Positions 48,040 to 64,000 of a stretch of 64,000 bases of DNA are shown in pieces. The notes below the pieces were generated by a model. The model searched no databases. It saw only the letters and a list, made by a program, of their open reading frames with translations, and was not told the DNA's origin. The translations under genes and the position numbers were made by a program. Every line of letters begins with the position of its first letter. The stretch's first letter is position 1. Source of the stretch: a virus; IMG/VR virus record IMGVR_UViG_3300044701_003572, positions 1-64,000 of that record; one strand, written 5' to 3'.

Positions 48040-48603
48040 TTACGCTCCTTGTAAACGGATATCAACAACTTCCCAGTTGATGATTCTCCATATATTATTT
48101 AAGTACTTTGCTTTGTCTTGTTGATAATCCAGTGCCCAAGCGTGTTCCCAAGCATCTATCAACAGAGCAATTTTCATATTCTTTTTATATTCGTGATTAT
48201 GTATTGTGTGCAGTTTGCCGGAGGTATCCATATAGATCCAATTGGATCCTTGAGCGGCCATGAACTCTTTTTCAAAAGCCTCTTTAAACTTTTCAAAATT
48301 TCCATAATTATCTTCGATTAGGGTCTTACTGATCCCCTCTGGTTTATTAGCAGCTCTAGGTGGGGTAAGATTAGCAAAGAAAATATTATGTAACATAGCA
48401 CCACCGTAGTTAAAATCCGGGTCGCCTTCACCTTTGTTGTAACGTTCAGAGTATTTGGCAGCTAATCCGTCGTAATGATATTTAACGGTATCTTCGCTCA
48501 TCACAGGCTCTAACTCGTTTTTATCAAACTTGAGTTTATCTTGACGGATTTCGCTCTTGTCTTTGTTTTCTGTTATACTTTTAATAAAATGTAGCATATG
48601 CAT
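48040..48603 (-). CDS. sodB: Fe/Mn superoxide dismutase-like protein
   Basis: A 187-residue SodB-type protein. The four metal ligands align with E. coli SodB: His43 (KYHYDG), His72 (LHNIF), Asp150 and His154 (DAWEHAW). The second-shell residue after YHY (His30 in E. coli) is not conserved, which could lower activity. The N-terminus is about 17 residues longer than in bacteria. A GGTAAATA element overlaps the start region; the second ATG at 48597 may be the true start. It could detoxify superoxide near the iron-sulfur genes beside it. Confidence 0.85.
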   Translation of the reverse strand: MHMLHFIKSITENKDKSEIRQDKLKFDKNELEPVMSEDTVKYHYDGLAAKYSERYNKGEGDPDFNYGGAMLHNIFFANLTPPRAANKPEGISKTLIEDNYGNFEKFKEAFEKEFMAAQGSNWIYMDTSGKLHTIHNHEYKKNMKIALLIDAWEHAWALDYQQDKAKYLNNIWRIINWEVVDIRLQGA

Positions 48604-48610
48604 ATTTACC
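48603..48610 (-). promoter_or_regulatory. Late-type element GGTAAATA before sodB
   Basis: Minus-strand GGTAAATA directly at the sodB start. Together with the plus-strand element at 48613 it forms a divergent pair only a few bases apart. Confidence 0.4.
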
Positions 48611-48612
48611 GT

Positions 48613-48620
48613 GCTAAATA
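48613..48620 (+). promoter_or_regulatory. Late-type element GCTAAATA before the EF-hand gene
   Basis: Plus-strand GCTAAATA, 20 bases before the ATG at 48641, with a good ribosome site (AAGGAG) between. This spacing is what a late promoter needs. Confidence 0.5.
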
Positions 48621-48640
48621 AACCACAAGGAGAAAAACCT

Positions 48641-48949
48641 ATGGAAATCGTACTTCTAGCAATCGCCGCAGTGGTAATTGGTGCTTTTGTTTATTACAAT
48701 CGTTCTTCAAAAGGACTCGATGTAAACAATGATGGCAAAGTTGACGCTGCTGATGCCAAGGCTGCTGTTCAAAATGTCGTTGAGGGTGTAAAAGCCACCG
48801 CCGATGTTAACAAGGACGGAAAAGTTGATTCTGCAGATGTAGCAGTGGTAAAAGAAAAGGTCAAGACAGTTGCCAAAAAGACAACAGCCAAGGCCAAAGA
48901 AACTGTTACGAAAGCAACAACTCGCGGTCGCAAGCCAAAGGCTCAATAA
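48641..48949 (+). CDS. Membrane-anchored double EF-hand protein with histone-like tail (102 aa)
   Basis: Start at the ATG at 48641 after AAGGAG; a longer frame upstream covers the promoter. One N-terminal membrane segment (IVLLAIAAVVIGAFVYY), then two dockerin-type calcium loops, DVNNDGKVDAAD and DVNKDGKVDSAD, 29 residues apart. The C-terminal 35 residues are Lys/Ala/Thr-rich like histone H1 (KKTTAKAKETVTKATTRGRK). Its end overlaps the convergent UvsE gene by 44 bases. A calcium-dependent membrane or DNA tether is possible; no function known. Confidence 0.78.
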   Translation: MEIVLLAIAAVVIGAFVYYNRSSKGLDVNNDGKVDAADAKAAVQNVVEGVKATADVNKDGKVDSADVAVVKEKVKTVAKKTTAKAKETVTKATTRGRKPKAQ

Positions 48950-49964
48950 TCTTTTGAGCCTCTTCGTAAAGTGCAAATGAAGCTAGATTCTTAGCTTTGC
49001 TTTCGCACATTATATCGAAGTCATCCCTAAAACTCAGTGCCCATTGATTCGCTGCTGTATTCCAGTAGAAGTTTGAATGCGCTCTGAGTTTTGCTTTTTT
49101 GTGTCCGGATTCTAGTAGCGTCCGAAGATCGGGACGGATGTGTCTGGGATGGTCATTAAGATGCTCTTCCCGTGAAACACTATAATGTATGACAGGACGC
49201 ACACCACGCCAGCTATCAATAATCCTTTTAACACGGTCGTCATTCGCATTTATATATTCTCCTGTGTGTATCCAATGATGGTGTATGTCTAATACTAGAG
49301 CACAATGATCGACTAGTTCTAGGCTAGAATCAATACCCCAACTAATTTCGTCGTTCTCAATAGTTAGTGTATTGCGAGCCTCTGGAGTCATGCGAGCCAA
49401 CGCAGCAACGATTCCCATTGGGCCTTGTCTACCTGCGATATGAACGTTGATTTTAAAGTCTTGAAACGTTCGGCCAAATCCCATCCAGCGAGCCATGTCC
49501 ACATGATATTCAAACTCCTCTATACTTCTATTTACAATATCTGGATTATCGCTAGCAAGGACAGTAAACTGCCCAGGATGAAAACTAAGGCGAACACCCC
49601 TCTTGCGAGCCAAATCCCCCACGGCTCGAAATGCTGTTTCACAATAGGCTCGGACATCGGAAGTCCGCCAAAACCAACTCCAAGTTGGCTCAGTGTACAC
49701 AGGAAGGATATCGCTGCTGAGTCGTACCATTCTAAGATTTTCATCTAGTTCTCCTACTCGTTCCACAAGCAAGCGGCACGATTCAATGTTCTGTTCCATA
49801 AGGGACCAGAGTTTTTCAGTAGCCACGTCCTTAGTCTGTCTATTTAACCAGGCTACGGTGGTACTACCGGTATTGTATTTTTTACAATCATCTTTGGGTT
49901 TAATGCCGTCTACTTGATCGGAACGGTCGATCCATTTGCAGGCAAAGCCAATACGCTTGATCAT
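48906..49964 (-). CDS. uvsE: UV damage endonuclease (UvsE/UvdE)
   Basis: Nicks DNA next to UV photoproducts. TIM-barrel motifs are intact: RMVRLSSDILP near 78, LSFHPGQF near 125, NVHIAG near 172, IENDEISWG near 200 and LDIHHHWIH near 225, which hold the three-metal site. 352 residues, near bacterial length. It starts directly after the 49965 gene stop. Light-exposed marine phages benefit from such repair. Confidence 0.94.
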   Translation of the reverse strand: MIKRIGFACKWIDRSDQVDGIKPKDDCKKYNTGSTTVAWLNRQTKDVATEKLWSLMEQNIESCRLLVERVGELDENLRMVRLSSDILPVYTEPTWSWFWRTSDVRAYCETAFRAVGDLARKRGVRLSFHPGQFTVLASDNPDIVNRSIEEFEYHVDMARWMGFGRTFQDFKINVHIAGRQGPMGIVAALARMTPEARNTLTIENDEISWGIDSSLELVDHCALVLDIHHHWIHTGEYINANDDRVKRIIDSWRGVRPVIHYSVSREEHLNDHPRHIRPDLRTLLESGHKKAKLRAHSNFYWNTAANQWALSFRDDFDIMCESKAKNLASFALYEEAQKIIEPLACDRELLLS

Positions 49965-50132
49965 TTAATGTACCGCTTTCTTAGCATCTACTTCGCACTC
50001 AACTACCCAATTATTAAATTCGGTAAATTTGTTTACTTCAACTCCTAGTCCAACGGCTTCATTTACAAAGTGCTGCAGAAGTGCATTATAAAGCTCGTCG
50101 GGCATTGTGTTTTTATCAAATTTAATTTTCAT
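49965..50132 (-). CDS. Small unknown protein (55 aa)
   Basis: ATG at 50132, TAA directly before the UvsE ATG. Sequence MKIKFDKNTMPDELYNALL, then a strand and helix (NKFTEFNNWVVECEV). Compact alpha/beta, no motif. The tight join to uvsE suggests a shared transcript, not a shared function. Confidence 0.65.
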   Translation of the reverse strand: MKIKFDKNTMPDELYNALLQHFVNEAVGLGVEVNKFTEFNNWVVECEVDAKKAVH

Positions 50133-50150
50133 AATACAAGTATAACACCA

Positions 50151-50939
50151 TCAGCACCAGTTGTCAACAACAAACTTGTCTCTAACGTCTTGAGGTTTTG
50201 GATCACCGTGGAATACTGCCACGCAGCATTCTGGACTTATATTGAGATTATCCTGAGTGTCTTTAAAAAATCGTTTACCCTTTTCATAGATCAGCTCTTC
50301 TCTTTTTCGTATTTCCCACTTGTAACTTAATATCCAATCGGTGGGCCAATATTTGATTTTATTGAAACTTACTTTATAGATCCAATCTTGGTCACCCTGC
50401 AATCTTTGAGCCTCAGATGGGTTAACCATAAATTTTTCATATATTTCTGTTTGGGAACCGTGTCTCCAAGACATCACAGAACTGTTAACAATTTTCCAAT
50501 TGTTATAAAATTTTCTATTAAAATCTTGTATACCGTAAAAACCGTTACCTAAATTTGTCACTAACTTATTGATGTTAGCGTGTATTACAACATCCAAATC
50601 AAAATATAAGATTCTACCGTGTACCGGTAATCGAGAATCGAACATATGAACTTTGTGCCACCAAAGTTTTTTATAAGGACCTGTTGGTTGATAGATGTTT
50701 CTAACTCCGTCAATTGTGTGACGATCGTCAGTTAGACAAACAAATTCATAGGGAACAGTAAGATGTCTTGCGACCATGTTGCGGAGACGTTCAACATATT
50801 CTCTACCGTATCGTGTACCAAATCTCACACAGAGAACGGTGACTTTATCATCTTCAGCTGAAATTACAGATTGTTGATTAAATTTTTCTGCACGTTTTTC
50901 CGCTTTAAGACGTCTACGTTCTTCTTTTGACAATTCCAT
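50151..50939 (-). CDS. GT-A type glycosyltransferase
   Basis: A 262-residue enzyme with a DxD motif in YFDLDVVI near 118, preceded by [14 protein letters not shown] as in family 8-like and other retaining enzymes, and ending [11 protein letters not shown] basic coil ([17 protein letters not shown]) precedes the domain. It overlaps the kdsA gene by 26 bases, so surface glycan transfer (Kdo or another LPS sugar) is a fair hypothesis. Donor and acceptor unknown. Confidence 0.8.
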
Positions 50940-51744
50940 CGATAGCCACCAATTCTTCTAATAGTTCTTTTAATTTATCTAGACGAACCATATTTGGACC
51001 GTCGCTTGGAGCATTGTCTGGATTTTCGTGAGTTTCGATAAAAACTCCAGCAACACAACCTGTAGCTACAGCAGCTCTCGCCAGGTAGGGTACCATGGTC
51101 CGATCTCCACCAGATCGTTCTCCCATTCCTCCAGGTTGCTGTACACTATGAGTGGCATCAAAGACCACTGGATACCCGGTGCTTGCCATAATAGGCAAAC
51201 TGCGCATATCCACAACAAGATTGTTATATCCATGGGTGTATCCTCTTTCGCATAACATAACTCGATCATTCCCGGTAGATGCTATTTTTTCTGCGACATT
51301 TTTCATGTCGTGCGGTGCTAAGAATTGTCCCTTCTTAACATTAACAGCCTTACCGGTACTACCTGCTGCTAGTAGCAAGTCAGTTTGTCTACATAAAAAA
51401 GCTGGTATCTGTAACACATCTGTGCCAGCACTGGCAACTAACTCTGCCTGCCAGCACTCATGAATATCAGTCAATATAGGCATACCAAAAAGATGTTTAA
51501 CAGAATTTAATATTTGTAAACCCTTTTCTAATCCGACACCTCTTTTAGTGTTTATACTGGATCTGTTAGCTTTATCGAAACTGCTTTTATAGATCAAACC
51601 AATATTAAGATCATCGCAGATTTCTTTAATTGATCCTGCTGTTTGATGAGCATGATCTTGACTTTCTATTTGACAAGGGCCAGCGATTAAAAATATTTTG
51701 TTCTTATTGCTGATCTCTACGTGGTTGATTGAAAATGTATGCAT
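50914..51744 (-). CDS. kdsA: 3-deoxy-D-manno-octulosonate 8-phosphate synthase (KdsA)
   Basis: Joins phosphoenolpyruvate with arabinose 5-phosphate to make Kdo-8-phosphate, the first Kdo step of LPS. Motifs: IAGPCQIES near 19-27, [12 protein letters not shown] near 52-63, LTDIHE near 94 and [12 protein letters not shown] near 196-207. 276 residues is full length. The Cys in IAGPC matches the metal-dependent type; the remainder of the metal site (His, Glu, Asp) also seems present. It is coupled to a glycosyltransferase. Function in phage infection: remodelling host LPS, by inference. Confidence 0.94.
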
Positions 51745-51749
51745 ATTAT

Positions 51750-51757
51750 TATTTACC
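51750..51757 (-). promoter_or_regulatory. Late-type element GGTAAATA before kdsA
   Basis: Minus-strand GGTAAATA six bases before the kdsA ATG. Overlaps the end of the 51753 gene. The short spacing makes promoter use uncertain. Confidence 0.3.
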
Positions 51758-51944
51758 AGTGTCTAATGACATTGGCAATAATGAACAGGCAAGTAACTAC
51801 GTGGATAACTACCCAAAAAGTTTTTAGAAACAAAGCTATTCTAGCTTCTCGAATAGTGAGAATAGGCACATCTGGCCTATCCTCGTCAGTTCTGCCCATT
51901 AAATGGCCAGTAGCCCTAGCCCAGATTTTTTCTAAACTGTTCAT
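51753..51944 (-). CDS. Small membrane protein (63 aa)
   Basis: N-terminal soluble half ([20 protein letters not shown]) and a hydrophobic C-terminal half ([22 protein letters not shown]). A tail-anchored inner membrane protein by this layout. It overlaps the queD end by four bases. Proteins with the same opening occur in other T4-like marine phages. Role unknown. Confidence 0.7.
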
Positions 51945-52468
51945 CCCTCGTACACTGCCGAGTTTCCTGCGTGTTCAAATACTTCGGCGGATTTTAGTCT
52001 AACACCTTGTCCGACTGGATAACGTGCTTCAAATACACGACCATCCGGATGCGTCCAACCGCGACCTTCTTGATAAGCAGTTAAAATTTCATTCATAGTT
52101 TTGTAAACTAATTCAGCGAACATTTCACAGCCAACACCGTCTACAATACGTAGATCGATGATGCCCATGTTTTTAAATCCGCCTTGGATTTTGTTTAGTT
52201 CTACAAATGTGCCGCGTTCCGGATCGTCTTTGCCGATGACCATAGTATGATCAAACTGCCATTCGCTCCATTCTTTAAAAGCTTTAAGTCCGCCAAAGTC
52301 CATGACCCAATTCCGATCATCTAAGGTTTCAGATTCAAAGATTAGTTTGATGCCAATGGAATAACCATGTAGCAGTGAGCAATGGCTGTGTGTTGAACGC
52401 CATTGTCTAAAACAGCATGACAGGCCTCTGTCGTTACCGTAAGTTTTTGTTGAAAGATATTTCGCCAT
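51941..52468 (-). CDS. queD: QueD (6-carboxy-tetrahydropterin synthase)
   Basis: Makes 6-carboxy-tetrahydropterin from the FolE product on the way to preQ0. I use the ATG at 52468 (MAKYLSTKTYG); earlier starts add a sequence not typical of QueD. HSHCSLLHGY at 27-36 is the zinc and catalytic Cys region; the usual HGH is HGY here, so the third zinc ligand is altered. WVMDFGGLKAF and QFDHTMV match QueD strands, and CEMFAELVY the later helix. 175 residues, longer than E. coli QueD (121) by an insert near 80-95 and a C-terminal extension. Confidence 0.83.
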   Translation of the reverse strand: MAKYLSTKTYGNDRGLSCCFRQWRSTHSHCSLLHGYSIGIKLIFESETLDDRNWVMDFGGLKAFKEWSEWQFDHTMVIGKDDPERGTFVELNKIQGGFKNMGIIDLRIVDGVGCEMFAELVYKTMNEILTAYQEGRGWTHPDGRVFEARYPVGQGVRLKSAEVFEHAGNSAVYEG

Positions 52469-52519
52469 CTCTTGCCTCCTATAAAATGCATAAGCGAGTA
52501 AGTTTGATGACACGCAGAG

Positions 52520-52527
52520 TATTTAAA
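52520..52527 (-). promoter_or_regulatory. Late-type element TTTAAATA upstream of queD
   Basis: Minus-strand TTTAAATA 52 bases before the chosen queD ATG, in the gap after the 52564 gene. Weaker match than NATAAATA. Confidence 0.3.
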
Positions 52528-52563
52528 GAGGGGTGAGCGTCATAGAAGTCCTCTATATGTATA

Positions 52564-53211
52564 TTACACGATATTTAGCTGAAGTGCAAGACCTTGATCG
52601 ATATTCTTGAAATTCTCTATCTCCATAAAAGAAACATTGTCTAAAATCCACTCTTTAGGCATTTTCCAATCTTTATAATTGACAATGATATATTCTTTAT
52701 GGGTATGATGTTTGAACGTTTCGGATATTTGATAGATCCAAAAACTAGGATCTACTGGTAAAGAATCGGTACTGTTATAATTTTTTGTACCTTTATAGAT
52801 ATTATTAAATTTGTTATTAGTTGAATAAAGATCAAAACCTATGAGATAGATTTGATCATGATCTAATAAACTGGCTACTAATATTGCATACGGACCGCTG
52901 CCCCAATGTTCAGGGTTATCTCTTTTGATATTGCCATTTGTAGGCACTGCAGGAAGTTGACATATATTTTTATTTTTTTGTATCTTTTTGAAAGATTTAT
53001 AAAATCTTTCTCTTACATATATTTTTGTTGATAGATTGTTTTTATTTTCTAATGACTCAAAGACCATTCGATGATCGCAACAAATTAGATGATCGACAGT
53101 AATATCTCTGTGTATAGCGTTGCAACCTACTATCGGATATATCTTCTTGAGATTGTCGATATCAACGGCTGACCTGCTTTCGCCGTTGCCTAAAACTATT
53201 ACCGAGTTCAC
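52564..53211 (-). CDS. MptE/DUF115-like glycan-pathway protein (215 aa)
   Basis: A Rossmann-type protein with VLGNGESRSAVD at the start, VGCNAIHRDITVDHLICCDH in the middle and GSGPYAILVASLL then IYLIGFDLYS toward the end. This signature belongs to a group including MptE-like/DUF115 proteins and phage sialyltransferase-like enzymes. It probably transfers a sugar or phospho-sugar, close to kdsA and a glycosyltransferase. Substrate unknown. Confidence 0.68.
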   Translation of the reverse strand: MNSVIVLGNGESRSAVDIDNLKKIYPIVGCNAIHRDITVDHLICCDHRMVFESLENKNNLSTKIYVRERFYKSFKKIQKNKNICQLPAVPTNGNIKRDNPEHWGSGPYAILVASLLDHDQIYLIGFDLYSTNNKFNNIYKGTKNYNSTDSLPVDPSFWIYQISETFKHHTHKEYIIVNYKDWKMPKEWILDNVSFMEIENFKNIDQGLALQLNIV

Positions 53212-60018: not shown

Positions 60019-60131
60019 TGGTGTGGTCGGTAGGTTTCGAACCTACAAAGGCTGCGAGTTATACTCAGCGCCCCGTCCCCATTCTCGACTATGAGTCGAG
60101 CGGGAGGTCTGCCTATTCCACTCACGACCAC
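60019..60131 (-). tRNA. Long tRNA with CAU-type anticodon loop and oversized variable region
   Basis: Minus strand. The acceptor GTGGTCG (60125-60131) pairs with CGACCAC (60023-60029), then A and an encoded CCA (60019-60022). The T-arm is GTAGG/CCTAC with loop TTCGAAA. The D-arm is GAG/CTC with TGGAATAGGCAG, like class II tRNAs. The hairpin CTCGA-CTCATAG-TCGAG gives anticodon CAT with a normal 7-base loop. But 37 bases separate it from the T-arm, far above the usual class II maximum of about 23. An alternative pairing (TCCCG with CGGGG) would put an insertion of about 18 bases in the anticodon loop. Identity is therefore unresolved (Met or Ile2 by CAT; Leu-like D-arm). 113 bases in all. Confidence 0.75.
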
Positions 60132-60137
60132 AAGTAT

Positions 60138-60166
60138 ATTATATAACCTTAATCTTAAAAATACAA
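60138..60166 (-). promoter_or_regulatory. Sigma-70 promoter for the tRNA
   Basis: Minus strand: TTGTAT (60161-60166), a 17-base spacer, and TATAAT (60138-60143), with the tRNA 5' end seven bases downstream. This is near the ideal host-type layout. Confidence 0.7.
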
Positions 60167-60177
60167 TATATGATAGG

Positions 60178-60184
60178 TTAAATA
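60178..60184 (+). promoter_or_regulatory. Late-type element TTAAATA before the radical SAM cassette
   Basis: Plus-strand GGTTAAATA in the divergent gap, only ten bases before the ATG at 60195, so a transcript would be nearly leaderless. No Shine-Dalgarno is visible. It could be the cassette promoter or chance. Confidence 0.35.
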
Positions 60185-60194
60185 ATAGCAGTTT

Positions 60195-61178
60195 ATGACA
60201 CACGACTTTCAAAAAATACCTTTTCAAAATATAATTAAATTTGGACAGAGAACTATGTTAGAAAGACCTTTGTTCTCTGTAAGTTGGATATTAGGACGAT
60301 TTTGTAATTATAGTTGTTCATATTGCTGGCCGTATGCAAGATCGGATAGAATTGATCACCAATCACTAGACATCTATAAAAATACAGTAGACGAAATTAA
60401 AAGACAAGCAAGACAGAATGGATTTACAGAGTTTCATTGGAGCTTCAGTGGTGGCGAACCAACGGCCTATAAACAACTATTAGATCTAGCAAGACATTTA
60501 GAAAATGATTTAGAAAGTCCGTATCAGAGCATACATATGACTACCAATTTAAGTCCGGGAAGCAAATGGTGGAAAAATTGGTCGAATACTACTGCTAATT
60601 TGCAGAGAAGAAGTATTACAGCAAGCTATCATTCTGAGTTCGCTAAAGAACAGGAATTTGGTGATAAATGCCTTCAGCTTATGTACGACAACGTATATGT
60701 TACAATCAATCAAGTAATGGTGCCGGATCAATTTTTTCAATTATACGAACGCTGTGAAAGACTGCATAAAAGAGGAATCAATGTAACTCTGAAGCCTCAG
60801 AGTGATCCTACGGCCAGCGGCGTTGTAGATGGATATACCAAGGAAATGATTAACCTGATGCAGACAGGTTTTCCTCAGCAGGCCAACGCCGAAGAATTAT
60901 ATCAAATTGTACTTTATGATACTAATGATAAAGAGTATTTGTTTGATCAGGCAGAAAGATTTAACGCTTATGATTTTAATAAGTTTCAAGGATGGCATTG
61001 TAATTCTGGATACCAAAGTGTTATAATTCGCAGCGATGAAGTAAAAAGATCCTATAGTTGTCATGATCAACTGTTAGGAACTTTAACAGAAGGATTTAAT
61101 TTGTTTAATAAACCTCGACGCTGCATTACACCTAGTTGTGTAAGTTCAGCTGATAGTAAAGTACCAAAATGCAAATAG
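60195..61178 (+). CDS. Radical SAM enzyme with C-terminal Cys cluster (327 aa)
   Basis: First gene of the plus-strand cassette. The radical SAM triad CNYSCSYC (37-44) and the GGEPT motif (86-90) are clear, so it makes a 5'-deoxyadenosyl radical. The C-terminus has five more Cys (269, 289, 310, 315, 326) in a SPASM/twitch-like arrangement for auxiliary iron-sulfur clusters, typical of peptide- or tRNA-modifying enzymes. Length and the extra Cys argue against QueE, which is shorter. It overlaps the methyltransferase-fold gene by ten bases. Substrate unknown; it needs iron-sulfur clusters, which the phage isc genes could supply. Confidence 0.85.
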   Translation: MTHDFQKIPFQNIIKFGQRTMLERPLFSVSWILGRFCNYSCSYCWPYARSDRIDHQSLDIYKNTVDEIKRQARQNGFTEFHWSFSGGEPTAYKQLLDLARHLENDLESPYQSIHMTTNLSPGSKWWKNWSNTTANLQRRSITASYHSEFAKEQEFGDKCLQLMYDNVYVTINQVMVPDQFFQLYERCERLHKRGINVTLKPQSDPTASGVVDGYTKEMINLMQTGFPQQANAEELYQIVLYDTNDKEYLFDQAERFNAYDFNKFQGWHCNSGYQSVIIRSDEVKRSYSCHDQLLGTLTEGFNLFNKPRRCITPSCVSSADSKVPKCK

Positions 61179-61777
61179 ATACAGAACATTTACATTACTG
61201 GATGCAGGCTATCCGGCAAAGCCCGAATCCTATGCGAACCATGGATGCATTCTGGAGAGGACAACTTAAAAGCAAAGAATGGTTAATCGAAAATTTACGT
61301 AAGCACGTAAACAAATTTGTAACAGTAGATATTCACGGAGGATGGGTTGGAGTATTAGCTAGTATGTTGTTCCAGAGCGAAATTCCTATCATTAATATTC
61401 GTAGTATTGATATTGATCCAACGTGCGAACCTATCGCTGTTAATATGAATAAGATTGAAGAAATGGTAGGGAAGTTTCGAGCAGTCACTGCCGATATGTG
61501 TGTTATTAGCAGTAATGCAGATGTTATCATTAATACCAGCTGTGAACATATTACACAGTACGATTATGATACGTGGCTAAATGGTATTCCATCTAGCTCA
61601 TTGCTTGTTTTACAAAGTAATAATTATCAAATTCCGGAGCACGTTCGAACAGCAAAAACATTAGATGAATTTAAAGAACAATCTAATATTAACATATTGT
61701 GGTCCGGAGAACTAGAATTGCCCTTATACAACCGATATATGATCATTGGAAGAAAGAATGTTACCTTATCCACATAA
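61169..61777 (+). CDS. SAM-dependent methyltransferase-fold protein (202 aa)
   Basis: A Rossmann methyltransferase-like core: VTVDIHGGWVGVLAS (52-66, SAM-binding loop), RSIDIDPTCEPIA (78-90, acidic end of strand 2) and VIINTSCEHITQYD (119-132, strand 4). It overlaps both flanking radical SAM genes. It may methylate the product of the first enzyme; which substrate is not known. The GxGxG loop is divergent (GGWVG), so activity is not certain. Confidence 0.72.
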   Translation: MQIDTEHLHYWMQAIRQSPNPMRTMDAFWRGQLKSKEWLIENLRKHVNKFVTVDIHGGWVGVLASMLFQSEIPIINIRSIDIDPTCEPIAVNMNKIEEMVGKFRAVTADMCVISSNADVIINTSCEHITQYDYDTWLNGIPSSSLLVLQSNNYQIPEHVRTAKTLDEFKEQSNINILWSGELELPLYNRYMIIGRKNVTLST

Positions 61778-62858
61778 TATAAAATCAGTTCATATCGAAT
61801 TAACTGACAAATGTCAAGCAGCCTGTCCTATGTGTTCGAGAAACGAGTTCGGCGGCAAAGAACGCAGTCATATTAAAAATACTGAAATTACTTTAGAACA
61901 GTTTGTTCAATGGTTCCCTAGAGAATTCTTAATGAAACTTGATAGTTTTTATGCTTGTGGAAATAACGGAGACCCTTTACTGGCTAAAGATTGTTTAGAA
62001 ATATTCGAATATCTGGCTAATAACACTACTGATGATTGTAGACTTGCCATTCACACTAACGGAAGTTTGAGAAATAAAGAGTGGTGGACGAATCTTGCTA
62101 GAGTTCTGGGTAATAAAGGTTTGGTAGTTTTTGCTATCGATGGATTTAAAGGTCAGCATGAAATGTATAGGCGAAACACTAGTTGGGATAAAATTATTGA
62201 GAATGCTAAGACATTTATAGCTGCTGGCGGCAAAGCAAGATCAGATACTTTGTTATTCAAACACAACGAAGATGAGGCAGAAAATCTAAAAGAATATCTA
62301 CTTAGCATCGGGTTTGAAGAAGTTATTCTAAAACCAACACAAAGGTTTCACGGATTACCTCAGTTCCCAGTAAAAGATCAATATGGTAACGTGGAATACT
62401 ATATCGAAGGACCTACGAAACCGCAGTATAAAGAATACATTATGCAACCAAACATGGTTAAGTTAGTAGAAAAAGAAACTTATAATGCTCTAATTAAAAA
62501 TTCTGAAATTGATCCGAAGTGTCAAACTGGTCGAGACTTATTTGTTAATACTTTTGGTAATGTGTGGCCCTGCTGTTTTGTACAGGCATTAAATGTCACT
62601 GACGGACTTGACTGGCAAGGTGCCGAATATGTTATTAGGGAAAGATTAAGACTATCCGCTGTAGATGTAGCAGATGATATTGGTATTCCAAATTTGCACG
62701 GAACTAATATCGTTGATATTTTGAATTCTTGCGGTTGGGGCGAAAGTCTTCCTAAACATTATACCACTGATAAAAAATTAGTTTGTGTTAAAAGTTGTTC
62801 TACAAACTTACGAAAGTTGGTTGAAGATAATAACAAACCTCAAATACAATACTGGTAA
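61758..62858 (+). CDS. Second radical SAM enzyme, SPASM-like (366 aa)
   Basis: Start at the ATG at 61758 after GGAAGAAAG; a TTG at 61746 is an alternative. CQAACPMC (19-26) is the iron-sulfur triad and CGNNGDP (67-73) replaces the GGEP motif. At the C-terminus, KCQTG, WPCCFVQ, NSCGWGE, VCVKSC and related residues form an auxiliary-cluster region as in SPASM enzymes. The gene overlaps the methyltransferase end by 20 bases and converges with the next gene, sharing 19 bases. Substrate unknown. Confidence 0.85.
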   Translation: MLPYPHNIKSVHIELTDKCQAACPMCSRNEFGGKERSHIKNTEITLEQFVQWFPREFLMKLDSFYACGNNGDPLLAKDCLEIFEYLANNTTDDCRLAIHTNGSLRNKEWWTNLARVLGNKGLVVFAIDGFKGQHEMYRRNTSWDKIIENAKTFIAAGGKARSDTLLFKHNEDEAENLKEYLLSIGFEEVILKPTQRFHGLPQFPVKDQYGNVEYYIEGPTKPQYKEYIMQPNMVKLVEKETYNALIKNSEIDPKCQTGRDLFVNTFGNVWPCCFVQALNVTDGLDWQGAEYVIRERLRLSAVDVADDIGIPNLHGTNIVDILNSCGWGESLPKHYTTDKKLVCVKSCSTNLRKLVEDNNKPQIQYW

Positions 62859-63520
62859 TCTAAAATAACACCTGCTCGGGTAATTGATTCAAAAGCACCT
62901 GTAAATGTATCTGGAGTCAGCGTGTTTAAATAAACTTCCTTTTCGCTGATTGCTTTGAAACCTGTAATTGTATTATTTTTTACACCTGCATTGATCAATG
63001 TCATAATCGGTGTGTACGCCAATTGCTTCCAATCATAGTCGCCTTCGATAATTTTAATTTTAAGAAAAGGATCTTGTTCGTTGTATCTCGGTAAAAGAAC
63101 ACGCACATTAAGATGTATTCTAGTTCGAGGTCCCCAATTTGCCGCAACGTGTATTTTGCCTGTGTTCATATACCATAGTTGTCCGTCGGCAGGCAGATGG
63201 TATAATTTGTTGTCAGTTATATCAACTAAAAAACTGTAAGGATTGGTAATAATAGCAAGATGTATTCGATCATCTGGATCAGCGTGTGCAGTATATGACT
63301 CCGCAGATTCTAGTTTAAGAAGTCTAGCCTGCCCAATATTTCCTAAAGACTTTAATACCTCACCTAACGGAGTTGATTCAAACTCCGGCAAAATTATCCA
63401 AGGATCATGAAAGAAAGATCCAGAAGGTTTATTCAAGTCTAGACGTTTTTCAAATACCAAATCATCAACTTGTTGTATAATGGGTTCTATAGAAAATTTT
63501 TGGTCGAGTTTAGTAAGCAT
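62840..63520 (-). CDS. Aspartyl/asparaginyl beta-hydroxylase-like 2OG oxygenase (226 aa)
   Basis: A cupin-type iron(II)/2-oxoglutarate enzyme. His79, Asp81 (AHADPDDR) and His124 (KIHVAANW) give the HxD...H iron site and Arg134 in PRTRIHLNVRVL is placed to hold 2-oxoglutarate. The spacing matches the Asp/Asn hydroxylase family, which oxidises side chains of proteins. The only minus-strand gene in the cassette, it faces the radical SAM gene tail to tail and its ATG lies ten bases from that of the PP-loop gene. Probably acts on the same product. Confidence 0.8.
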   Translation of the reverse strand: MLTKLDQKFSIEPIIQQVDDLVFEKRLDLNKPSGSFFHDPWIILPEFESTPLGEVLKSLGNIGQARLLKLESAESYTAHADPDDRIHLAIITNPYSFLVDITDNKLYHLPADGQLWYMNTGKIHVAANWGPRTRIHLNVRVLLPRYNEQDPFLKIKIIEGDYDWKQLAYTPIMTLINAGVKNNTITGFKAISEKEVYLNTLTPDTFTGAFESITRAGVILDYQYCI

Positions 63521-63530
63521 AATTATACTT

Positions 63531-64000
63531 ATGAAAGTAGATATACCGTTTGATAATAATTGGAAAAGTGTTGCTATTGCGGTAAGTGGCGGCGCTGATA
63601 GCGCATTACTGACATTTCTAGTTTGTCAAACAGTAACAGAAAGAAATATTAATCCTTTTACTGTACACGTTATTAATAACATTAGATGCTGGAAGACTAA
63701 GCCCTGGCAACAAAGCGATTTTAAAAAAGTTTATAATTGGTTAGTTCAACGATTTCCAAAAATTAATTTTCAAATACACACAAATTTCGTACCTCCTGAA
63801 CTAGAATGGGCCAATAAAGGTCCTAGCATTATCGATGAATACGGTAAGTTAGTCAGTGGAGACACACTAGAATTAAGATCCTTTGCAGAATTTGTATGCA
63901 TCAATCAGGATGTTGATGCATATTTCAATGGCGTTACACGAAATCCAAAAGGCGTTGATTTTCAGGGAATGCATACTAGAGATATAGAACCTACCGAAGA
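63531..64000 (+). CDS. PP-loop ATPase, N-terminal part (runs off window)
   Basis: Begins MKVDIPFDNNWKSVAIAV; SGGADS at 19-24 is the PP-loop that activates a carbonyl or similar with ATP. 156 residues are visible and the frame is open to the edge. Families with this motif include QueC, TilS, ThiI, asparagine synthase and others; with FolE and QueD here, QueC is attractive, but the sequence after the loop does not show a decisive QueC match and the zinc Cys region is outside. It could also be a ligase that joins something in the cassette. Confidence 0.8.
   Translation, partial: MKVDIPFDNNWKSVAIAVSGGADSALLTFLVCQTVTERNINPFTVHVINNIRCWKTKPWQQSDFKKVYNWLVQRFPKINFQIHTNFVPPELEWANKGPSIIDEYGKLVSGDTLELRSFAEFVCINQDVDAYFNGVTRNPKGVDFQGMHTRDIEPTE

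Follow-up and report, generated by a model that had tools for sequence, protein, structure and literature searches.

The right end of a 64,000-nucleotide stretch of viral DNA (here called the window; bases 1-64,000 of the 86,378-bp virus record IMGVR_UViG_3300044701_003572 of IMG/VR) raises the question of what is made or modified by five adjacent enzyme genes, which encode two radical S-adenosylmethionine (radical SAM) enzymes, a methyltransferase, an Asp/Asn hydroxylase and a PP-loop ATPase. The preliminary description of this DNA had proposed that the set acts successively on one substrate and had named a peptide, a tRNA, a modified DNA base or a glycan as candidates. The virus is large, of freshwater type, and infects bacteria. 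Its DNA polymerase is of the T4 type (phrog_262), with 51% identity to that of Sinorhizobium phage Phosso and 47% to that of Agrobacterium phage Atu_ph07, which identifies it as a T4-related jumbo phage. The five genes form the conserved end of a larger island of tailoring enzymes carried by the phage, and we infer that they belong to a phage modification system. As a tentative first choice, we propose that the island makes a hypermodified 7-deazaguanine-type base, which would be used in the phage DNA or as a nucleotide ending there.

The island spans 26 kb (60,195-86,251; all coordinates are those of the record) and comprises 28 tightly packed genes, taken as open reading frames called without a trained gene finder. 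Encoded are 12 radical SAM proteins, all with the CX3CX2C cluster motif, about seven 2-oxoglutarate (2OG)-oxygenase-like proteins, a QueC-like PP-loop ATPase, a methyltransferase, an aminotransferase, a flavin halogenase and others. All five genes of the cassette were in place, with junctions that are overlaps of 10, 32 and 19 bp or a gap of 7 bp. Four of them lie on the plus strand, opposite to nearly all other genes of the window, and the sign of the GC skew flips at 60 kb. The suspected continuation beyond the window was borne out, as the island runs on for another 22 kb past the right edge with 23 further genes of like character. As a whole it matched no pathway described in the libraries searched, in agreement with the initial impression.

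The first gene, rSAM1 (60195-61178, +), stands divergent from a tRNA-like RNA and encodes a radical SAM protein (PF04055, 1.3e-11) with the cluster motif at 37:CNYSCSYC. It is followed by a methyltransferase-like gene (61169-61777, +), the product of which had no match in Pfam, PHROG or PDB and was assigned because of a class I motif, GGWxG...SIDIDP. The second radical SAM gene, rSAM2 (61746-62858, +), has a TTG start and encodes a protein (PF04055, 4e-10; 23:CQAACPMC) with a SPASM-like C terminus (SPASM, 0.042). The fourth product (62840-63520, -) resembles 2OG/Fe(II) oxygenases of the Asp/Asn/Pro-hydroxylase kind. Its residues H79, D81, H124 and R134, which match the HxD...H...R iron/2OG site, were invariant among relatives, and a profile of the family found beta-hydroxylase 7v4f at 6.1e-21 and L-proline cis-4-hydroxylase 4p7w at 1.3e-6 in PDB; the window copy alone scored 18.1 with PF05118 against a Pfam cut-off of 22.6. 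The fifth gene (63528-64253, +), cut by the window edge at 64000, encodes the QueC-like PP-loop ATPase, recognised by an SGGADS motif, a Cys4 site and its fold.

Scans of viral contigs yielded relatives of rSAM1 (137), the PP-loop protein (254) and an N-twitch radical SAM protein of the island (52). For comparison, 80, 80 and 51 of these loci, respectively, were kept, and loci of one contig or of near-identical contigs were merged, giving 116 groups. The family cluster holding rSAM1 occurred in 114 groups, rSAM2-like proteins in 105, N-twitch proteins in 104, the methyltransferase in 102, the hydroxylase in 73 and the PP-loop protein in 72. These counts are not frequencies, because the loci had been picked through three of the counted families, and, as families were joined by single linkage, the rSAM1 cluster and a kinase/oxygenase cluster each mix subfamilies. 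A member with at least 45% identity was present in 93 groups for rSAM1, 90 for the N-twitch protein TW2 (67972-69357, -), 84 for rSAM3 (66115-67014) and 81 for the N-twitch protein TW1 (64857-66122), but in just 14 for rSAM2 and rSAM4 (66953-67975, -). On this basis, we take the probable core to consist of rSAM1, the methyltransferase, TW2, rSAM3, TW1, the PP-loop ATPase and the hydroxylase.

The order of genes was also kept in relatives, as had been anticipated. N-twitch and rSAM1-family genes were neighbors in 68 groups compared with a maximum of 24 in shuffled orders, PP-loop and N-twitch genes in 45 compared with 8, methyltransferase and rSAM1-family genes in 46 compared with 20, rSAM2 and the methyltransferase in 44 compared with 13, and the hydroxylase and PP-loop genes in 29 compared with 9. 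Whereas the core and its order were conserved, the gene content of the surrounding shell was hypervariable; all island-bearing relatives are metagenomic contigs and possibly incomplete. Some of them carry an epimerase-like gene (family 41). Amidinotransferase-like (L057:7824-8810; no Pfam match) and fatty-acid-desaturase-like (L148:2748-3542) genes were spotted by eye in the shells of relatives, which would make the chemistry broader. The contigs with related islands belong to jumbo phages akin to T4. Twelve of 13 large records had 7-19 radical SAM matches, mostly in a single stretch, and one (G008) had just two. A single phage contig can hold as many as 19 radical SAM matches, mostly gathered in a modular island built around a conserved core, and this represents a large untapped source of C-H chemistry.

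The SGGADS motif (S20-S25) and four cysteines (C203, C224, C227 and C230) of the PP-loop protein were invariant in 22 aligned relatives. A structural model (predicted local distance difference test score 84) superimposed on QueC 3bl5 with a Z score of 15.1 over 175 residues and a root-mean-square deviation of 3.2 (model range 12-241), on a second QueC with 14.6 and on TilS/MesJ with 14.8. It also matched entry 9nto (13.9 over 168 residues), which we take to be Cap9, the QueC-like enzyme of a CBASS (cyclic-oligonucleotide-based antiphage signaling) system, and the title of which links it to NDG protein modification. The gene context of Cap9 differs from that of the island enzyme. In the model, QueC and TilS are thus tied, and fold alone does not single out QueC; Foldseek by itself placed NcsA, TilS and MnmA on top. 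PHROG assigned the protein to phrog_1550, QueC-like, at 1.9e-5, and the Pfam cut-off for QueC was passed by the relatives in G013 (24.0) and, when summed with in-frame neighbors, G006 (24.8). Either ligation or thiolation had originally been envisaged for this enzyme. The former gained support, the protein being nearer to the amide-forming QueC and Cap9, and thiolation lost ground, though TilS and NcsA rank close behind. A cellular origin of the gene was also considered, and no candidate passed in one scan of cellular genome contigs that relied on two short patterns.

Genes for a 7-deazaguanine precursor occur in the same genomes. Outside the island, the window encodes a FolE-like GTP cyclohydrolase I (336-1172, -; phrog_2197, 6.8e-44; PF01227, 2.0e-40 at 366-899) and a QueD-like protein of the 6-pyruvoyl-tetrahydropterin synthase family (51941-52513, -; PF01242, 9e-13; phrog_2389, 3.4e-32), both of which are possible feeders of the pathway. 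FolE was found in 11 of 14 records, the window's own included, and genuine QueE (167-186 bits) in 10 of the 13 large records, near FolE where both could be read; it was seen in relatives and not in the window's own 86-kb record. rSAM3 was rejected as a QueE, as it scored 37 bits with phrog_2076 while a separate genuine QueE was present. FolE, QueE, the PP-loop protein and 10-19 radical SAM matches co-occurred in the six records that are largest among those matching the PP-loop protein strongly: G001, G002, G003, G005, G006 and G007 (201-364 kb). The conserved core, the variable shell, the QueC-like enzyme and the phage-made precursor together make a deazaguanine our first guess, and the modified DNA base gains weight among the substrates named at the outset.

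The proposed route would start with FolE, QueD and QueE, the genes of which were found and the predicted activities of which suffice for 7-carboxy-7-deazaguanine. Judged from its fold and Cys4 site, the QueC-like enzyme would then use ATP to activate the 7-carboxylate and join an amine to it. The amine may be ammonia or an amino-acid-like group, to which Cap9 may join a carboxylate. The core, namely rSAM1, rSAM3, two N-twitch enzymes, the methyltransferase and the hydroxylase, would build out the side group. Finally, the shell, with its halogenase, aminotransferase, further radical SAM enzymes and oxygenases and kinase-fold proteins, varies between phages and might serve to alter the final chemistry. 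If true, such DNA hypermodification would extend the known chemistry of viral genomes and their defense against restriction.

Known phage 7-deazaguanine DNA modification (FolE-QueD-QueE-QueC-DpdA) shares FolE, QueD and QueE with these genomes and has its counterpart of QueC in the island. It differs in that the QueC-like enzyme of the island has diverged and is surrounded by tailoring enzymes and that the tRNA-guanine transglycosylase (TGT)/DpdA family (PF01702) was found in none of the 14 records, which are possibly incomplete. A conserved neighbor of FolE was considered as DpdA and rejected; it resembles annotated glycosyltransferases (Phosso and others) and had no TGT-like match. DpdA2 types are reported to escape sequence search (PMC6884629). 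A phosphoribosyltransferase gene lies between FolE and QueE in G002 (L332:7022-7615), with homologs in G003 and G007, and one adjoins QueE, QueD and FolE in lake Synechococcus phage BUCT-ZZ01 (L337:9861-10322). This proximity suggests a nucleotide-level route, by which the phosphoribosyltransferase would allow incorporation of the deazaguanine base without DpdA.

In addition to the lack of a DpdA match, several points speak against a deazaguanine product. The window copy of the PP-loop protein reached 16.0 bits with a QueC Pfam cut-off of 22. QueE and FolE also occurred in G008, G009, G010 and G012 without a strong match to the island PP-loop protein, so that QueE/FolE and the island need not be coupled. 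That the island enzymes act on a base is a deduction. All island-bearing records searched are, moreover, metagenomic and may be incomplete. Last, the amino-acid-type tailoring enzymes would fit a small metabolite or a surface decoration equally well.

This last point leads to a second reading that is itself possible and nearly as likely as the deazaguanine base, namely that the island makes a small metabolite derived from amino acids or sugars, or decorates a surface polymer of host or phage, with the core enzymes building a scaffold and the changing shell diversifying it. The hypervariable gene content, the aminotransferase, the relationship of the hydroxylase to Asp and proline hydroxylases and a halogenase about 30% identical to those of cyanophages are all consistent with it. 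A second gene cluster of jumbo cyanophages, with the same enzyme kinds (amino-acid halogenase, 2OG oxygenases and methyltransferases), was proposed by Iyer et al. (2021) to serve secondary metabolite synthesis or polysaccharide decoration (PMC7824862). That cluster differs in having 8-12 genes, and the word "radical" is absent from the text of the paper. Variable regions of pelagimyophages gain radical SAM cassettes (PMC7029224), and genes for KdsA-like, glycosyltransferase-like and CST-I-like proteins are found 7-10 kb left of the island. On the other side, no recognised glycosyltransferase, nucleotide-sugar enzyme or transporter was found among the island proteins scanned, several of which match no family, and the fold of the PP-loop protein was nearest to QueC, TilS and Cap9 rather than to natural-product ligases.

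Cultured phages offered distant comparisons for the deazaguanine proposal. Five island proteins (rSAM1, rSAM2, the PP-loop protein, an N-twitch protein and the halogenase) were searched against 50,697 phage records. The PP-loop protein had no match there at E 0.01. At E<=1e-5, rSAM1 matched Campylobacter phage CP21 only, and rSAM2 matched only F379 and CP220 (22-24% identity); matches of the N-twitch protein were limited to Vibrio phages K566/K567 and one marine contig, and all radical SAM and N-twitch matches were 22-28% identical. Islands so rich in radical SAM genes appear in jumbo phages that are uncultured, and not among the cultured ones searched. CP220-type phages are described as having 11-12 radical SAM proteins, part of which belong to a module that can be exchanged (PMC2853527), Campylobacter phages without DpdA as highly modified with 2'-deoxy-7-amido-7-deazaguanosine (dADG) (PMC6884629) and the DNA of group II phages as refractory (PMC3322345). 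CP220, CPt10 and IBB_35 resemble the window phage in being T4-related and rich in radical SAM proteins. They differ in that the island PP-loop and halogenase sequences found none of them and that the literature passages on them mention no tRNA-like RNA. The coincidence of radical SAM proteins and dADG is a suggestive parallel to the island, by analogy; against it, 22-24% identity could reflect the superfamily alone.

In another alternative, the target of the island is a protein or peptide, such as a virion protein, with its gene in a different part of the phage genome, and is modified in the manner of ribosomally synthesized and post-translationally modified peptides (RiPPs). Radical SAM enzymes of the N-twitch/SPASM and B12 types are similar to peptide maturases, and the kinase-like family, which has a protein-kinase fold with an unusual catalytic loop, could bind proteins. 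Atu_ph07 (L330:10909-17070) and Phosso (L331:7272-14396) each carry, next to genes for virion proteins, a separate cluster of four to five radical SAM genes; these are just 26-27% identical to the island families and are annotated as hypothetical in Atu_ph07. Four island proteins matched N_Twi_rSAM (NF033640) over full length with 320.8, 396.2, 247.5 and 281.7 bits (cut-off 170); the name of this family states no function, so that membership says little about chemistry. The likeness to peptide maturases is of superfamily level and far below the cut-offs of those models. The largest gap between the 28 genes is 35 bp, in which no precursor peptide gene fits. The absence of a precursor noted at first was thereby confirmed for the whole island, and a classical RiPP pathway was set aside. 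We consider modification of a protein or peptide unlikely.

The "strange tRNA" of the preliminary description proved to be a tRNA-like RNA of 113 nucleotides including an encoded CCA (60019-60131, -), with a conserved, covarying fold. The window copy has a 7-bp acceptor stem, A73, a T-arm (GUAGG-UUCGAAA-CCUAC), a D-arm-like element (AGUGGAA..GGCAGACC) and a long variable arm; at the position of the anticodon arm, a 5-bp hairpin with the loop CUCAUAG stands on an extra CCC/GGG helix. ARAGORN called no tRNA in the window and would need an 18-nucleotide "intron" in this RNA, Rfam found no matching family, and an ordinary tRNA or tmRNA was rejected on both grounds. A YrlA-type Y RNA was judged unlikely, as its Ro60/TROVE partner (PF05731) was found in none of the 13 records, which may be incomplete. 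A pattern scan of viral contigs that was independent of rSAM1, together with earlier loci, gave at least 95 distinct sequences. To the extent of Rfam and the literature searched, this is an undescribed family, and it raises the question of what use a non-decoding tRNA is to a phage.

In 30 diverse sequences, AGUGGAA, GG.A.ACCUCC, most of the T-arm and CCA were invariant. Pairing was seen in 95.3% of cells compared with 87.2% after shuffling, and two-sided pair changes numbered 12 compared with 6.9; because the window copy was the template for the structure, slid controls favor it somewhat. Six of the seven acceptor-stem pairs covaried, a value equaled in none of 500 shuffles. The central hairpin varied in length among the 95 sequences listed: 32 had mostly GNRA-like caps, 37 were of CCUCC type with UUCG or other caps and 6 were of other kinds. 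The remaining 20, the window copy included, have a covarying 5-bp stem with the loop CYYAUAG, which on paper resembles an anticodon loop with U or C at position 33, and the extra CCC/GGG helix between hairpin and D-arm. Within the subclade of the window, the central hairpin covaried with 100% of cells paired. Since the anticodon-like loop of seven nucleotides is limited to 20 of 95, the family as aligned conserves no anticodon; the window copy alone cannot be called anticodon-less. Among the phages' own tRNAs that were called with confidence, tRNA-Leu(UAA) came nearest in the D-arm, and the resemblance was weak. Parentage from tRNA-Leu was not accepted and is a lead only, as scores were low and the top one came from a doubtful "Pro" call. 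In one relative (L309:2187-3394), the tRNA-like RNA ends an array of ordinary tRNA genes, hinting at a tRNA origin. A gene for a protein like translation initiation factor IF-1 (72 amino acids, by eye; L106:17182-17400) is found repeatedly in the backbone of the relatives, close to one clade of the RNA.

A sigma70-type promoter was predicted for the RNA at 60138-60166 (-; TTGTAT-17-TATAAT, 6 nucleotides before nucleotide 1). The best -10 element ended exactly 6 nucleotides upstream of nucleotide 1 in 77 of 94 tRNA-like genes listed, and the best -35/-10 pair had on average 10.47 of 12 matches compared with 8.15 in shuffled sequence. The position of the -10 element places the predicted start at or beside nucleotide 1, and the RNA has a real, conserved gene with its own predicted promoter. 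A covariance model found the RNA just upstream of rSAM1 in 61 of 80 rSAM1 loci, some of the others being short of upstream sequence. Conversely, an rSAM1 of at least 60% identity was divergent within 150 bp in 53 of 74 distinct pattern-found sequences with room for it, among the matches listed. The usual distance to the first radical SAM gene was 29-94 bp.

The RNA, charged or bare, or an amino acid carried on it might therefore be what the enzymes modify, which we regard as a minor possibility. The conserved fold, the near-consensus promoter with its start at nucleotide 1 and the divergent adjacency to rSAM1 speak for such a link, as do the fit of the PP-loop fold to the tRNA enzymes TilS and NcsA and the Leu-like D-arm. 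Leu- or Ser-type synthetases ignore the anticodon, and one of them might charge the RNA, given that its acceptor stem, T-arm, A73 and CCA are all preserved. That the charged, anticodon-less RNA would carry the product through a radical-SAM-rich assembly line, as a dedicated non-decoding tRNA, is very improbable in our estimate. Weighing against a role as substrate, about one-quarter of the tRNA-like genes have no adjacent rSAM1. One strong match to the RNA was present in 9 of the 13 large records, which may be incomplete, and none in four, these being G005 and three other island records; G008 has the RNA, holds just two radical SAM matches and lacks a strong match to the PP-loop protein. Furthermore, the core enzymes are not basic (isoelectric points 5.5-7.1), which left charge uninformative as a sign of RNA binding, and the likeness to tRNA-Leu is weak.

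Alternatively, the RNA may be unrelated to the enzymes, a degenerate tRNA that has been retained either because it leads an mRNA at the 5' end or because it marks the edge of a variable region for recombination; we hold this to be improbable. In most of the exceptions without rSAM1, the RNA still borders phage backbone and variable genes. In the lineage of the window, the next gene on its strand starts about 45-65 nucleotides downstream, and together with the predicted start this would make the RNA the 5' end of a leftward mRNA. The Bacillus cereus tRNAOther, a pseudo-tRNA that acts outside translation, likewise flanks a genomic island (PMC3399842); it carries an anticodon for Trp and accepts lysine poorly, whereas most of the phage RNAs have no anticodon-like loop. 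The invariant CCA and the compensatory changes seen both in the acceptor stem and in the central hairpin favor a selected fold rather than a mere DNA landmark, and do not oppose a leader role.

The remaining island genes lie to the right of the window, and the labels "SGNH-like", "SDR-like" and several "oxygenase-like" stand for motifs or weak matches. An SGNH-like gene (64241-64873) precedes TW1. TW2 is followed by a B12-type radical SAM gene (69354-70832, -), a short SDR-like gene (70825-71382, -), a hydroxylase (71396-72043, -), rSAM5 (72036-73133), another B12-type radical SAM gene (73126-74730), a second SGNH-like gene (74685-75413, -), a TrsS/Tes-like radical SAM gene (75432-76628) and genes for three oxygenase-like proteins (76625-78352). 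A class III aminotransferase (78326-79510, -), two further N-twitch radical SAM proteins (79507-80724, - and 80717-82024, -), a kinase-fold-like protein (82014-82604, -), an oxygenase-like protein (82640-83182), the flavin halogenase (83179-84753; Trp_halogenase, 3.2e-88), another oxygenase-like protein (84739-85542, -) and a kinase-fold protein (85565-86251) complete the island. To its left, at 48040-53211 of the window, genes for a superoxide dismutase, the UV endonuclease UvdE, a member of the KdsA/DAHP-synthase family, a CST-I sialyltransferase-like protein and a glycosyltransferase-like protein were found together.

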